A stretch of DNA of 64,000 bases. Origin: Nitrospirales bacterium. Lineage in GTDB: Bacteria > Nitrospirota > Nitrospiria > Nitrospirales > UBA8639. The notes under the pieces are model-generated. The model was not told the DNA's origin. It did no database searches and saw nothing but the letters and a program-made list of their open reading frames with translations. Position 1 is the first letter of the stretch; each line of letters opens with the position of its first letter. Below are positions 51,840 to 55,983 of this stretch, piece by piece. A program made the translations under genes and the position numbers. The stretch spans positions 1,013,147 through 1,077,146 of the forward strand of contig JALDRJ010000002.1 of the NCBI GenBank assembly GCA_031315865.1, given 5' to 3'.

Positions 51840-52355
51840 CTAGCCGTGCAAATTTTTCATCGCAGCCGCACAAAGAATGATAAAGAGTCCCATCCACAGG
51901 GTTCCGCGTTGAAATGGAACAACCTCATAATCTTGTTCGTCCGTCGCTTCTTCGGTTTGATCATTCTTAAAGATAACCGTATACAGAAAGATCGTGAGAA
52001 CCCCGAGCACTAAGCTGAGCTTGATAAAGAAAACCGTCAGATATTTTGCGTTATGTGAGATGCCCTCACCGGTCAATAGCTCCATGGCTTTGCTGACATA
52101 GTGAAGATTGATCCCGCCCGTGAATAAGGCAACGACGAGAATAACCCCCACTACTCGCTTGTATTGGTGATAGAACGTATCCGTGATGGGGCGTATATAT
52201 TCCTTGGGAACAGCCGTTCGTAACCCAGGCGTCACAGCCATGACCAAAAACGCCAACCCCCCAATCCAGATAACGGCTGAAACCAGGTGCAGCCAATGAA
52301 TCATGATAGGGACAACTTGATTAAGATCAGTCAATACGATTTGCAGATCTTCCAT
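51840..52355 (-). CDS. CopD-family membrane protein
   Basis: The 171-residue protein has four membrane helices (about 17-42, 66-85, 103-123, 147-165) with family features: IMIHWLHLVSAVIWIGGLAFLVM, a conserved histidine-rich start, and HQYKRVVGVILVVALFTGGINL. CopD proteins take part in copper uptake, and many homologues are cytochrome-b-like haem carriers, so the metal role is uncertain. It is not linked to any copper gene here. Confidence 0.82.
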   Translation of the reverse strand: MEDLQIVLTDLNQVVPIMIHWLHLVSAVIWIGGLAFLVMAVTPGLRTAVPKEYIRPITDTFYHQYKRVVGVILVVALFTGGINLHYVSKAMELLTGEGISHNAKYLTVFFIKLSLVLGVLTIFLYTVIFKNDQTEEATDEQDYEVVPFQRGTLWMGLFIILCAAAMKNLHG

Positions 52356-52499: not shown

Positions 52500-53885
52500 T
52501 CAAAACTTAAACACGGGAGTTTCGTTCCCAAACCGTTTCTTGCGAAGCTCTTCCATTAACTCTGTCGTGACGACGGAAAGACCGCGTTCGATGGCATGTC
52601 GTTCAACACCTTTTTTTACCATGGCCCGAAGAAAATAGGGGATACGATCCAATCGAGTTTGAGCGGCTTCATCCCAGACAACCGAGGTCGTCTCGGGAAC
52701 ATTGAAGGCGACTTCTACTTTGTCTCCACCCTTTGGCGTATACAAGCACCATTGGTCCTCATCCAGCCAATCGCCATGGTCTACATAAGGCCGGGCTCGG
52801 CATCCTCCGCAAATTTCGCTGTATTCACAGTCTCCACACTTTCCCTTGAGGTGCGGATAGCGAAAAGAGTCAAAAATATCGGAACGTTCCCAGAGATCGA
52901 CAAAACTCTTGTCGCGGACATTCCCTGCTGAGAGCGGCATGTACGGACAGGGAGTCAAATCACCGTTTGGCGTGACTCGCGCGTAATTGGTACCGGCCAG
53001 ACATCCACCACCCATGTACCCTTGAGCTTTGGTGATGGGGGAATTAGGGTCCTTTTCAAAAGCCAACCGTTTAAAATGCGGGGCGCAGCGGGCACGGACC
53101 AGCATATCCTTGTATTTATCTTGACAGTCAACTAGATACCCAAGAACTTCCTCATACTGAGTAGGAGTGATATCGGACAATTCTTCTCCCCGTCCGGTGC
53201 AAACCATAAAGAATACGTTTAGCACCTTCGCACCGAGATTGTGCGCCCAATCGATGACCTCTGGTAACTCCTGGTAATTGATGGGTTGCGCACTAAAGTG
53301 AATCTGAAATTGCAGGCCATTTCTCTTACAGGCTTCAATCCCAGCGACTGCCCCCTCCCAGGCCTTTGGTAATCCACGAAACCGGTTGTGCTTTTCGGGG
53401 TCGAGTGAATCGATACTAATGCCGACTCCCATGACTCCGATTTCGACCAACGTCTTGGCCATGTCATCGTCGATTAGCATGCCATTCGTTCCGAATACCA
53501 CCATAAATCCACAAGAAACGGCATGTCGGGCAATATCCAGGATATCCGGGCGAACCAACGGCTCTCCCCCGGTAATGACAAGAAGACAGCCACGATTTAC
53601 TTCCGCGATTTGGTCTATCAGTTGATAACATTCCTGGGTCGTCAGTTCATCATGGCCGCCCCCCAGTTTTGTCGTCGCATCCAAATAACAGTGGTCACAT
53701 TTCAAGTTGCAGCGCTTCGTAAGGTTCAGCGCGATCAGATAGGGCTTGAAATCGTCAACCGTACGGCCATCATAGGGATTGTCCTGGCCGGAGGGTAGAG
53801 AATCGAAACGGGTCACATTCGCCGGGAACGCCGATTCTGCAGAGGAGGGACCGGGAAATTGAACGATGGGAAGGGACTTACCCAT
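52500..53885 (-). CDS. Radical SAM/SPASM protein with C-terminal PCP-reductase domain
   Basis: This 461-residue enzyme has the radical SAM cluster CNLKCDHCYLD (CX3CX2C) and TGGEPL. A SPASM region follows with GGCLAGTNYARV, TPCPYMPL, CGDCEY and CGGCRARPY, closely similar to the AhbD/NirJ haem-modifying enzymes. Residues from about 405 form a PCP_red domain (VVWDEAAQTRLDRIPYFLRAMVKK). A haem b synthase role by the sirohaem route is plausible, not shown. It overlaps the universal-stress gene by eight bases, and both carry PCP_red domains, so they probably act together. Confidence 0.88.
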   Translation of the reverse strand: MGKSLPIVQFPGPSSAESAFPANVTRFDSLPSGQDNPYDGRTVDDFKPYLIALNLTKRCNLKCDHCYLDATTKLGGGHDELTTQECYQLIDQIAEVNRGCLLVITGGEPLVRPDILDIARHAVSCGFMVVFGTNGMLIDDDMAKTLVEIGVMGVGISIDSLDPEKHNRFRGLPKAWEGAVAGIEACKRNGLQFQIHFSAQPINYQELPEVIDWAHNLGAKVLNVFFMVCTGRGEELSDITPTQYEEVLGYLVDCQDKYKDMLVRARCAPHFKRLAFEKDPNSPITKAQGYMGGGCLAGTNYARVTPNGDLTPCPYMPLSAGNVRDKSFVDLWERSDIFDSFRYPHLKGKCGDCEYSEICGGCRARPYVDHGDWLDEDQWCLYTPKGGDKVEVAFNVPETTSVVWDEAAQTRLDRIPYFLRAMVKKGVERHAIERGLSVVTTELMEELRKKRFGNETPVFKF

Positions 53886-55983
53886 GTTGCCCAGCTCCCG
53901 ATGGAGCCTGAGACTGTTCTCCTGAACCAGTCAAATTCGCGATGATGTCTTTCACGTTGCCGGTTTTCATCGCTTCTTCCATCGTCTGTTTGGCCTGCTC
54001 GATTCCCTCATTGGCCACATCAATAGTAATGACCGTCGTGCCGAGCTTTTCGGCGTGTTTGATAATGAGGGCGCGAGTACAGTCTCGCATAAAGCCGGCA
54101 GGCGCACGCTCCAAACGTTCAGTGGCAGCCGGCTCCCACGTATACGGGGAGGAATCCGATGGTTGATCGTTCGTCCCACTTTCTTGTGTCATGGTCGATT
54201 CCCCACTGTTTGGTGTTTTATTAGCAAAAATTGGCGTATAGTCTTCTGCCGCAGCTTCTTGAATCGTGGGAGCCGCATATTCCAAGGTAATCGTGGTCAT
54301 ACCCAGCTTTCTCGCAGATTTTTCAATCCTCGCTTTAGCCCGTCGTCGCTGAAATCCCGCGGGAACAGCGCGAATGGCTTCTTTCGCGTCCTTTGTCCAC
54401 TGCATCGGGACATCATCATAGGCCAGATGAGTTTCAAGCTCCCCTTCAGCCTTGGCCGCTGCGTCAAAAATCGCTTTGTCAACCTCTTTAAATTGGGCCC
54501 CATCCGCAGCACAGACAGGACATTTGACCGGAGCCGGATCACCCTTTCCGATGTATCCACACCCATTGCACACATAGTAGGTTCGAGACATCCGATCGAG
54601 GTAATTCTGGTTAGGATTGCTGGCCGCTTTGCTTGAACCGTTATCAACGGGTTTTTCCTCGACGATTTGAGTCATCATCCCGCTGAGAGTTGATCCCATC
54701 AGGTCGTTGGCAACGGAATCATCCGCTTGCATTTTGTCTCGATCAATTCCCGCAGCGTCAAGATTCCCACCGAGAGCTCTCATCGCATCCATCGCGCCCT
54801 TAGGAAGAATATCACCGACCGCAGCATCAATAACCGAATCGCTGATGATGGTATGGCCTTTCTCGATGGCATACCGGTGAATAGCGGTTTTCGCTACGCC
54901 CCTGGCAAAAACAGGAATTTTCTCCATCCGTTTGAGAGCCTCTTCTGTCCACGCAATCGTATATTCTGCCTGGGTGTCGATCGGAGGCACGAATTTTTTA
55001 TTGGAAATCAAAATATTGCACGGAGCCGATCGAAGCAGGTTTTCGGCATTGCTCCCGATGTCCATATCATCGTCACTGTGGACACCGATGCGCCCCACGA
55101 TGAGCAACCACGGCTGTTCTTTCCGAACATACTGAATGACCTTTTCAAAGGCTTTTCCATCGAGTAACGTCGTCTTAATATCCGCCCCTTCTTCTTGCGC
55201 CACATCGCGTGAAACATCAAGATGAGACTGATAAATCTTTGCCAAGCCACTATCAATGACTTCTTCATGGAGTTTTTCTTGCTCCTTGAACCTGAAGACT
55301 TTTCCCGCTTCTTCGTTCAACACACCCGATATGCTGTGGAAAGCAGCATAATGAAAGTACGGATCAAAGGCCGAGATAGCTTCGACCGGCTTGTTTAAGG
55401 CCTTGCCCAATGCTAAAGCGGTCTTGAGTCCTCCGAAAGAATAGTGACTACCATCAACGGCCACGACAATTTTTCCGTTCTCTGATTCTTTCAGGTCTTT
55501 AATAATCAACATGTCGGAGTTACGGACACGACGAACAACACGTTCGGTATTGCTGCCAACGACAGAATCTTTAACAGCGCCAACTCCCAAAGCTCCCATA
55601 ATGGTCAAATCATAACCATTCGTCCCTATGTCTTCAGCCAAAACCTTCCAGTTGCGACCTTCCAGAGAGCGGCGTTCTAGAGGTATATTGGCCTCACCAC
55701 ATTGTTGATCAACATAGTCCAAGTAGGAATCCGTGATAATCTGGAGACCACGAGTGATCAACGAATCATGGATTTGTCGCTGACGGTCAAGTTCTTTTTC
55801 ATCATGATATTCTTCAGGAAGGCCAGCCTCCATCTGCTTAAAACGTTTATCATGCATTTTCGCCGCATACACATGACTCCCGACAATTTTAGAGCCAAAC
55901 GTTTTAGCCAGCTTGACGCCTAAATCGACTGCCTTATTCGAATGGTCAGAATTATCAACAGGAATATATATGGTTTTATACAT
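53878..55983 (-). CDS. Two-USP, rubredoxin and triple PCP-reductase-domain protein
   Basis: The 701-residue protein is a mosaic. Two universal-stress domains (about 1-163, 170-328) each have the ATP loop G-x2-G-x9-G-S. A first PCP_red domain (about 343-395; AWTEEALKRMEKIPVFARG) follows. A rubredoxin-like knuckle pair (468-500; YVCNGCGYIGKG, VKCPVCAADG) comes next, then two more PCP_red domains (527-575, 613-660). It is translationally coupled to the radical SAM gene. A stress-responsive electron-delivery partner for that enzyme is a reasonable inference. AAGGAGG precedes ATG 55983. Confidence 0.85.
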   Translation of the reverse strand: MYKTIYIPVDNSDHSNKAVDLGVKLAKTFGSKIVGSHVYAAKMHDKRFKQMEAGLPEEYHDEKELDRQRQIHDSLITRGLQIITDSYLDYVDQQCGEANIPLERRSLEGRNWKVLAEDIGTNGYDLTIMGALGVGAVKDSVVGSNTERVVRRVRNSDMLIIKDLKESENGKIVVAVDGSHYSFGGLKTALALGKALNKPVEAISAFDPYFHYAAFHSISGVLNEEAGKVFRFKEQEKLHEEVIDSGLAKIYQSHLDVSRDVAQEEGADIKTTLLDGKAFEKVIQYVRKEQPWLLIVGRIGVHSDDDMDIGSNAENLLRSAPCNILISNKKFVPPIDTQAEYTIAWTEEALKRMEKIPVFARGVAKTAIHRYAIEKGHTIISDSVIDAAVGDILPKGAMDAMRALGGNLDAAGIDRDKMQADDSVANDLMGSTLSGMMTQIVEEKPVDNGSSKAASNPNQNYLDRMSRTYYVCNGCGYIGKGDPAPVKCPVCAADGAQFKEVDKAIFDAAAKAEGELETHLAYDDVPMQWTKDAKEAIRAVPAGFQRRRAKARIEKSARKLGMTTITLEYAAPTIQEAAAEDYTPIFANKTPNSGESTMTQESGTNDQPSDSSPYTWEPAATERLERAPAGFMRDCTRALIIKHAEKLGTTVITIDVANEGIEQAKQTMEEAMKTGNVKDIIANLTGSGEQSQAPSGAGQHG

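Follow-up and report, generated by a model that had tools for sequence, protein, structure and literature searches.

Radical SAM enzymes of the AhbD type (heme b synthase, TIGR04545) combine a radical SAM core with a full SPASM domain (cysteine layout as in PMC10452713, our reference), and in some organisms the coproporphyrin route of haem synthesis ends with AhbD (PMC7242693). PCP_red (PF08369) is a 45-residue Pfam domain found in BchB/ChlB of the light-independent protochlorophyllide reductase (DPOR) and in the stand-alone protein Asr4154 (PDB 2l09, 2kru), while tandem universal stress proteins (USPs) such as Rv2623, TTHA0350 and UspE carry two USP domains with ATP motifs. Here, we describe a gene pair from a bacterium of the nitrite-oxidiser order Nitrospirales, located in a stretch of 64,000 nucleotides (the window; contig JALDRJ010000002.1 of assembly GCA_031315865.1), which encodes an AhbD/NirJ2-like radical SAM/SPASM protein ending in PCP_red and a tandem USP with three further PCP_red domains.

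The pair is a conserved cassette across many phyla and no local oddity. Judging from homology and gene context, we give a probability of roughly 50% to the reading that the cassette performs an oxygen-independent modification of a tetrapyrrole (haem) serving a respiratory chain that includes CydA-like oxidases as well as type II molybdenum enzymes. Compared with the preliminary description of this DNA, the cross-phylum conservation of the pair, the presence of a third gene and the association with CydA-like oxidases are new.

A cassette conserved across phyla

A profile of deep family members, run against genome contigs, recovered at least 562 relatives, and the 80 that were kept span Nitrospirota, Nitrospinota, Pseudomonadota, Planctomycetota (including anammox bacteria), Poribacteria, Gemmatimonadota, Acidobacteriota, Chloroflexota, Myxococcota and Thermodesulfobacteriota, together with a few archaeal and Bacillota NirJ2/AhbD-like proteins without PCP_red. 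Every radical SAM protein of the 117 loci compared, which represent at least ten phyla, carries one to three PCP_red domains (L236, truncated by a contig end, was excluded; certain loci, e.g. L116/L158, L125/L195 and L083/L224, come from the same genome via different collections). The 60 PCP_red-bearing proteins placed in a quick tree, computed without bootstrap and with long outgroup branches, formed one clade (Shimodaira–Hasegawa-like approximate likelihood ratio test [SH-aLRT] 93) set apart from AhbD-like proteins (SH-aLRT 99), archaeal NirJ2/AhbD-like proteins and Bacillota NirJ2. A USP gene lies next to the radical SAM gene on the same strand at 88 of the 117 loci, versus none of 20 AhbD-like control loci. 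In most Nitrospirales the radical SAM protein is single-copy and 73–91% identical, its named close relatives (Nitrospira sp. and Nitrospirales bacterium records) being 78–89% identical; that of family f4 is more divergent (about 45–48%), and a few assemblies, mostly fragmented, lack it or hold only a part (e.g. G022, G035 and G041). The cassette of the window is composed as follows:

52500..53885, minus strand: radical SAM/SPASM protein, 461 residues, AhbD/NirJ2-like, with C-terminal PCP_red (open reading frame [ORF], Pfam, NCBIfam; AlphaFold2 predicted local distance difference test score [pLDDT] 83.7)
53247..53726, minus strand: Radical_SAM core, residues 54-213, CX3CX2C (Pfam; motif aligned)
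52824..53003, minus strand: its SPASM domain, residues 295-354 (Pfam)
52542..52676, minus strand: its PCP_red domain, residues 404-448 (Pfam)
53878..55983, minus strand: tandem USP with three PCP_red domains and a rubredoxin-like domain, 701 residues (Pfam; AlphaFold2 pLDDT 78.5)
55495..55977, minus strand: USP domain 1, ATP motif GALGVGAVKDSVVGS (motif; extent from the AlphaFold2 model)
55006..55476, minus strand: USP domain 2, residues 170-326, ATP motif GRIGVHSDDDMDIGS (Pfam and motif)
54820..54951, minus strand: PCP_red domain 1 of the USP protein (Pfam)
54487..54576, minus strand: rubredoxin-like domain (RUBY_RBDX) of the USP protein, residues 470-499 (Pfam)
54280..54399, minus strand: PCP_red domain 2 of the USP protein (profile search)
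54013..54138, minus strand: PCP_red domain 3 of the USP protein, under the cut-off alone (profile search and AlphaFold2 model)
53878..53885, minus strand: overlap of the two genes, 8 bp (ORFs)
51840..52355, minus strand: third gene, membrane protein of 171 residues, putative CopD/HemJ superfamily, kept next to the radical SAM gene (sub-threshold profile matches and hhalign)

In the radical SAM protein, Pfam detected Radical_SAM (4e-24), SPASM (1e-9) and PCP_red (55.7 bits; gathering cut-off 32.5). The USP protein gave two Usp matches (5e-31), three PCP_red copies with 102.5 bits summed against the same cut-off, and RUBY_RBDX with 33.3 bits (cut-off 26.5). On its own, the weakest PCP_red copy reached 28.9 bits, short of the gathering score, and was modelled by AlphaFold2 as strand-helix-helix-strand-helix, like the other copies. 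Both USP domains hold the canonical ATP motif G2xG9xG(S/T), here as G2xG9xGS. These results bear out what had been described for the pair, namely an eight-base overlap, four PCP_red domains (one in the radical SAM and three in the USP protein), a rubredoxin-like metal site and two USP domains predicted to bind ATP.

Although Rv2623, TTHA0350 and UspE are its nearest solved folds, the window's USP differs from them by its C-terminal tail, with the PCP_red domains and the rubredoxin-like site, and by its radical SAM neighbour. The number of PCP_red copies in USP partners ranges from zero to four by lineage, and in one deep group of Nitrospirota the partners are tandem USPs without any added domain. 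The rubredoxin-like site was found in 36 of 94 partners and varies by lineage; we therefore rejected rubredoxin as a general electron donor, since electron delivery through a lineage-limited site cannot be the general function.

The third gene is HemY-like at 29 and CopD-like at 43–44 of the 117 loci and never both, with the HemY-like form in Proteobacteria and the CopD/HemJ-like membrane protein in Nitrospirales, including the window. It resembles the porphyrinogen oxidases HemJ and HemY: the HemY-like proteins score above the PPO equivalog cut-off (246–291 versus 98 bits) and fall in clades apart from housekeeping CgoX, while the window's membrane protein would be a distant CopD/HemJ relative. 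The latter gave sub-threshold matches to DUF4149, CopD and DUF2214, but is not HemJ by Pfam, with no match to PF03653 at E ≤ 10 for the protein itself or in the genome search. Its superfamily assignment is tentative and was judged by profile-profile similarity, with the alignment of a histidine of the first transmembrane helix and of a later lysine as the criterion; hhalign against HemJ yielded a probability of 60.6 and a score of 34, versus 8–18 in 20 shuffles, which is weak but above the null. In deep Nitrospirota, a family of 217–253 residues without a Pfam or NCBIfam match lies directly downstream of the radical SAM gene (L113, L117, L120, L121 and L124; e.g. L120:7260-7991).

Respiratory oxidases beside the cassette

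Genes for CydA-like proteins (19 of the 117 loci), cytochrome c-EB_dh (21), NarJ-like proteins (9) and molybdenum-enzyme subunits (6–7) occur around the radical SAM gene, versus 0–1 each in the 20 AhbD-like controls. Cytochromes c, cytochrome c-EB_dh heme-b subunits, a NarJ-like chaperone and subunits of the type II dimethyl sulfoxide-reductase family are among its further neighbours. The controls, in contrast, adjoin hemE (18/20), hemH (10/20) and hemY (8/20), whereas the PCP_red radical SAM gene is next to hemE at none of the 117 loci. Upstream of the cassette in L075 (771-3686) and other f3 Nitrospirales lie MpqE, a methyl-plastoquinone methyltransferase (410 bits, above its cut-off), and a B12-binding radical SAM protein akin to slr0320 (445 bits, below its cut-off).

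Co-occurrence was examined in 246 Nitrospirota genomes, 157 of them outside the window's class by subtraction (246-78-11). Outside that class, 20 genomes have both the PCP_red radical SAM and a CydA-like protein, 3 only the former, 2 only the latter and 132 neither (Fisher P=4e-20, in a test that treats genomes as separate though they are not independent). In four families of mixed state the two agree in 26 of 26 genomes, and a CydA-like protein was found in 1 of 98 genomes with AhbD alone. COX1, the haem-copper oxidase, is far more weakly associated (P=6e-4) and was dropped as the linked oxidase in favour of CydA-like proteins. The window genome has at least four CydA-like genes and no COX1 match at E ≤ 1e-30, and a haem-copper oxidase went undetected in most of the Nitrospirales sampled; in Nitrospira marina, seven putative bd-like oxidases have been described (PMC8115632). 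Since the pair recurs across phyla beside unusual respiratory oxidases, a role in making or adapting haem for these enzymes is probable.

Enzyme class, haem route and competing explanations

The highest NCBIfam scores of the window's radical SAM protein were for NirJ2 (TIGR04055; 327.6 bits) and AhbD (306.8 bits), followed by AhbC, NirJ and NirJ1 (about 170 bits) and PqqE (110 bits), in keeping with the AhbD/NirJ-like SPASM core seen earlier. The curated cut-off is 500 bits for both NirJ2 and AhbD, and the protein falls below each. Other family members score 297–329 bits against AhbD, none reaching 500, and NirJ2 is the top curated family for most members tested (318–343 bits); AhbD-like proteins of the Nitrospirota reach up to 452 bits against AhbD, also below 500. 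Alignments show that all 11 AhbD-type cysteines are kept, three in CX3CX2C and eight of the auxiliary clusters within residues 267-380, as is the motif GRCGxCEYxxxCGGCRAR, and the core is about 34–38% identical to the AhbD-like proteins of Nitrospirota. The protein therefore appears to be a tetrapyrrole-type radical SAM enzyme, yet one outside AhbD and NirJ2 by membership; the kinship of its SPASM core, for which a phylogeny had been suggested, stands by score but not as placement within either family, given the separate clade.

In a check proposed in the preliminary description, HemN proved absent from the window genome (168 bits versus a cut-off of 325), which has hemE and CgoX in tandem and a ChdC-like protein (PF06778) whose best NCBIfam match, the H2O2-dependent heme synthase, scored 130.7 bits, below the cut-off of 235. 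Ferrochelatase HemH (PF00762) was not detected in 16 of 16 genomes of the window's family, single-contig ones included, whereas 8 of 10 sister-family genomes have it (G000; loci L239:5751-8379 and L238:6388-7092). The siroheme route, also raised earlier, found no support and was set aside, as the window genome holds no second radical SAM protein of the AhbC/AhbD group (next match 43.7 bits; AhbA and AhbB were not searched).

This haem route bears on the possible, though unlikely, alternative that the radical SAM protein is a functional AhbD, i.e. an oxygen-independent coproheme decarboxylase taking the last step of the coproporphyrin route at low oxygen while ChdC serves aerobic growth, as in Haloferax volcanii, where ChdC is used under aerobic and AhbD under anaerobic conditions (PMC5746218). 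Such a role would agree with the known ending of the route in AhbD, with HemE, CgoX and the ChdC-like protein alongside the missing HemN, and with the AhbD-like genes of other Nitrospirota that adjoin hemE-hemH-hemY. However, the protein sits in a clade of its own, scores below the AhbD cut-off, shows VCTGR and CAPHFKR in place of AhbD motifs, ends in PCP_red, is coupled to a USP gene, lies outside hemE-hemH operons, occurs together with AhbD-like genes in four genomes and tracks CydA-like oxidases. Simple AhbD orthology was thus ruled out by score, tree, motifs and gene context.

Somewhat less probable is a maturase of a protein or peptide in a respiratory complex, with the USP and PCP_red domains as chaperones or docking partners. 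The PDB folds closest to the AlphaFold2 model, PqqE, SkfB, SuiB and anSME, are SPASM enzymes that modify peptides or proteins, and oxidoreductase subunits and a NarJ-type chaperone are among the neighbours; the fold ranking cannot discriminate, however, because all SPASM enzymes match and no AhbD structure is among the PDB matches, and fold search was discarded as a class discriminator. The family scores about 200 bits higher for tetrapyrrole radical SAM enzymes than for PqqE, which disfavours the orthology to a peptide maturase that had earlier been allowed for. In addition, the model has no RRE-like N-terminal domain (residues 1-34 are disordered), and no conserved small precursor ORF was found among clustered neighbours of at least 70–80 residues, shorter ORFs not having been searched.

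We regard as improbable a regulatory or storage scaffold in which the USP senses ATP, PCP_red mediates contacts and radical SAM catalysis is minor or lost: although PCP_red is also present in proteins without enzymatic domains and several USPs of N. marina, which need not include that of the cassette, rise under low oxygen (PMC8115632), the radical SAM and SPASM cysteines are invariant in alignments across many phyla, which implies catalysis. In favour of a heme d1-like (NirJ2) pathway are the top score for NirJ2 and the neighbourhood at L118, where the radical SAM gene adjoins a NirJ-like gene, a gene with a cytochrome-d1 domain and another related to it. Such a pathway is nevertheless very improbable, as the NirJ2 score stays below the cut-off, a neighbourhood of this type was seen at L118 alone, and the Bacillota NirJ2 reference (565.7 bits) lacks PCP_red and branches outside the clade. 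No AhbA/B- or NirDL-like partner was noticed, with no search aimed at AhbA/AhbB.

PCP_red in non-phototrophs and the proposed role

Profile searches revealed 12 PCP_red domains in five proteins of the window genome and the domain in 60 of 60 Nitrospirales relatives, mostly in 8–12 and usually in 10–12 copies, an abundance far beyond chance. PF00148 (BchN/BchB/nitrogenase) was absent from the window genome and 25 relatives, and hence there is no DPOR in these 26 genomes, consistent with the earlier view of PCP_red in a non-phototroph without photosynthesis genes. Unlike in BchB/ChlB, PCP_red is here multiplied and fused to radical SAM and USP proteins, with no nitrogenase-like core. A relic of lost chlorophyll synthesis was rejected on the missing PF00148 core and on the fusion typifying a clade of at least ten phyla. 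A literature search for PCP_red together with radical SAM gave no match, subscription papers being mostly beyond reach. In a 2026 study, PF08369 is among the pre-screen markers of phototrophy (PMC12815261); given its distribution, this marker would flag Nitrospirales.

In the window genome, another protein with two PCP_red domains and a cysteine-containing N-terminus (L033:9889-11635; G000:C2:1096389-1098135) is encoded immediately after, and downstream of, a gene for a Fe-S carrier ATPase of the Mrp/ApbC type, an arrangement that recalls the BchL-BchB pairing. More speculatively, PCP_red might serve to dock P-loop Fe-S ATPases. At L035:6050-13165 (G000:C2), a 162-residue protein with two PCP_red domains lies among a CydA-like protein of 637 residues, a DUF420 protein and a secreted CarboxypepD_reg protein, the same kinds of neighbours as the radical SAM cassette has elsewhere. 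A stand-alone protein of 328 residues (L034:9343-10329) consists of four PCP_red domains.

In the tetrapyrrole-modification reading that we favour, the radical SAM protein would most likely generate a 5'-deoxyadenosyl radical and oxidise the propionate side chains of coproheme or of another, related precursor of haem, while its SPASM clusters would pass the electron out. The third gene product probably oxidises porphyrinogen to porphyrin or accepts electrons, the PCP_red domains on both proteins probably dock partners or handle porphyrin, and the USP, with its predicted ATP binding, would make the step dependent on energy or oxygen status. Recipients of the product would be the cytochromes c, the CydA-like oxidases and the type II molybdenum enzymes of the respiratory chain. 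Hence, of the stress-responsive haem-modification or electron-delivery complex proposed in the preliminary description, haem chemistry in a non-phototroph is retained, on the strength of the AhbD/NirJ2 group, the 11 cysteines, a third gene of the PPO/CgoX family or, putatively, the HemJ superfamily and the lack of DPOR, and rubredoxin electron delivery as the general function is not; stress response and complex formation stay inferences.

Several observations weigh against this reading. Acidobacterial, poribacterial and some other copies of the radical SAM gene have no USP neighbour. In 93 members VCTGR replaces the AhbD motif VPTGR, and CAPHFKR has mostly taken the place of CAPHYYR; a different substrate is therefore possible. 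For decarboxylating coproheme, a ChdC-like protein is already encoded in the window genome, and four genomes hold both AhbD-like and PCP_red radical SAM proteins; plain haem b synthesis is therefore not obviously needed. No stated function of PCP_red was found in the literature searched, even for BchB. Inside the window's class the link has exceptions: of the genomes with CydA-like proteins, five have a weaker, AhbD-like match only and two show nothing above threshold. Part of the co-occurrence reflects phylogeny, and the pattern could be a sign of lifestyle.

More speculatively, and with rather low confidence, the cassette might make an undescribed haem (e.g. with partially decarboxylated or oxidised side chains) as the cofactor of the CydA-like 'bd-like' oxidases in nitrite oxidisers and other low-oxygen chemolithotrophs, PCP_red being a general tetrapyrrole- or partner-docking module. 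If the favoured reading is right, the bd-like oxidases of Nitrospira, which are poorly understood, would have a uniform and testable gene set behind them, and PCP_red, known from chlorophyll synthesis, would be placed in the haem metabolism of non-phototrophs.

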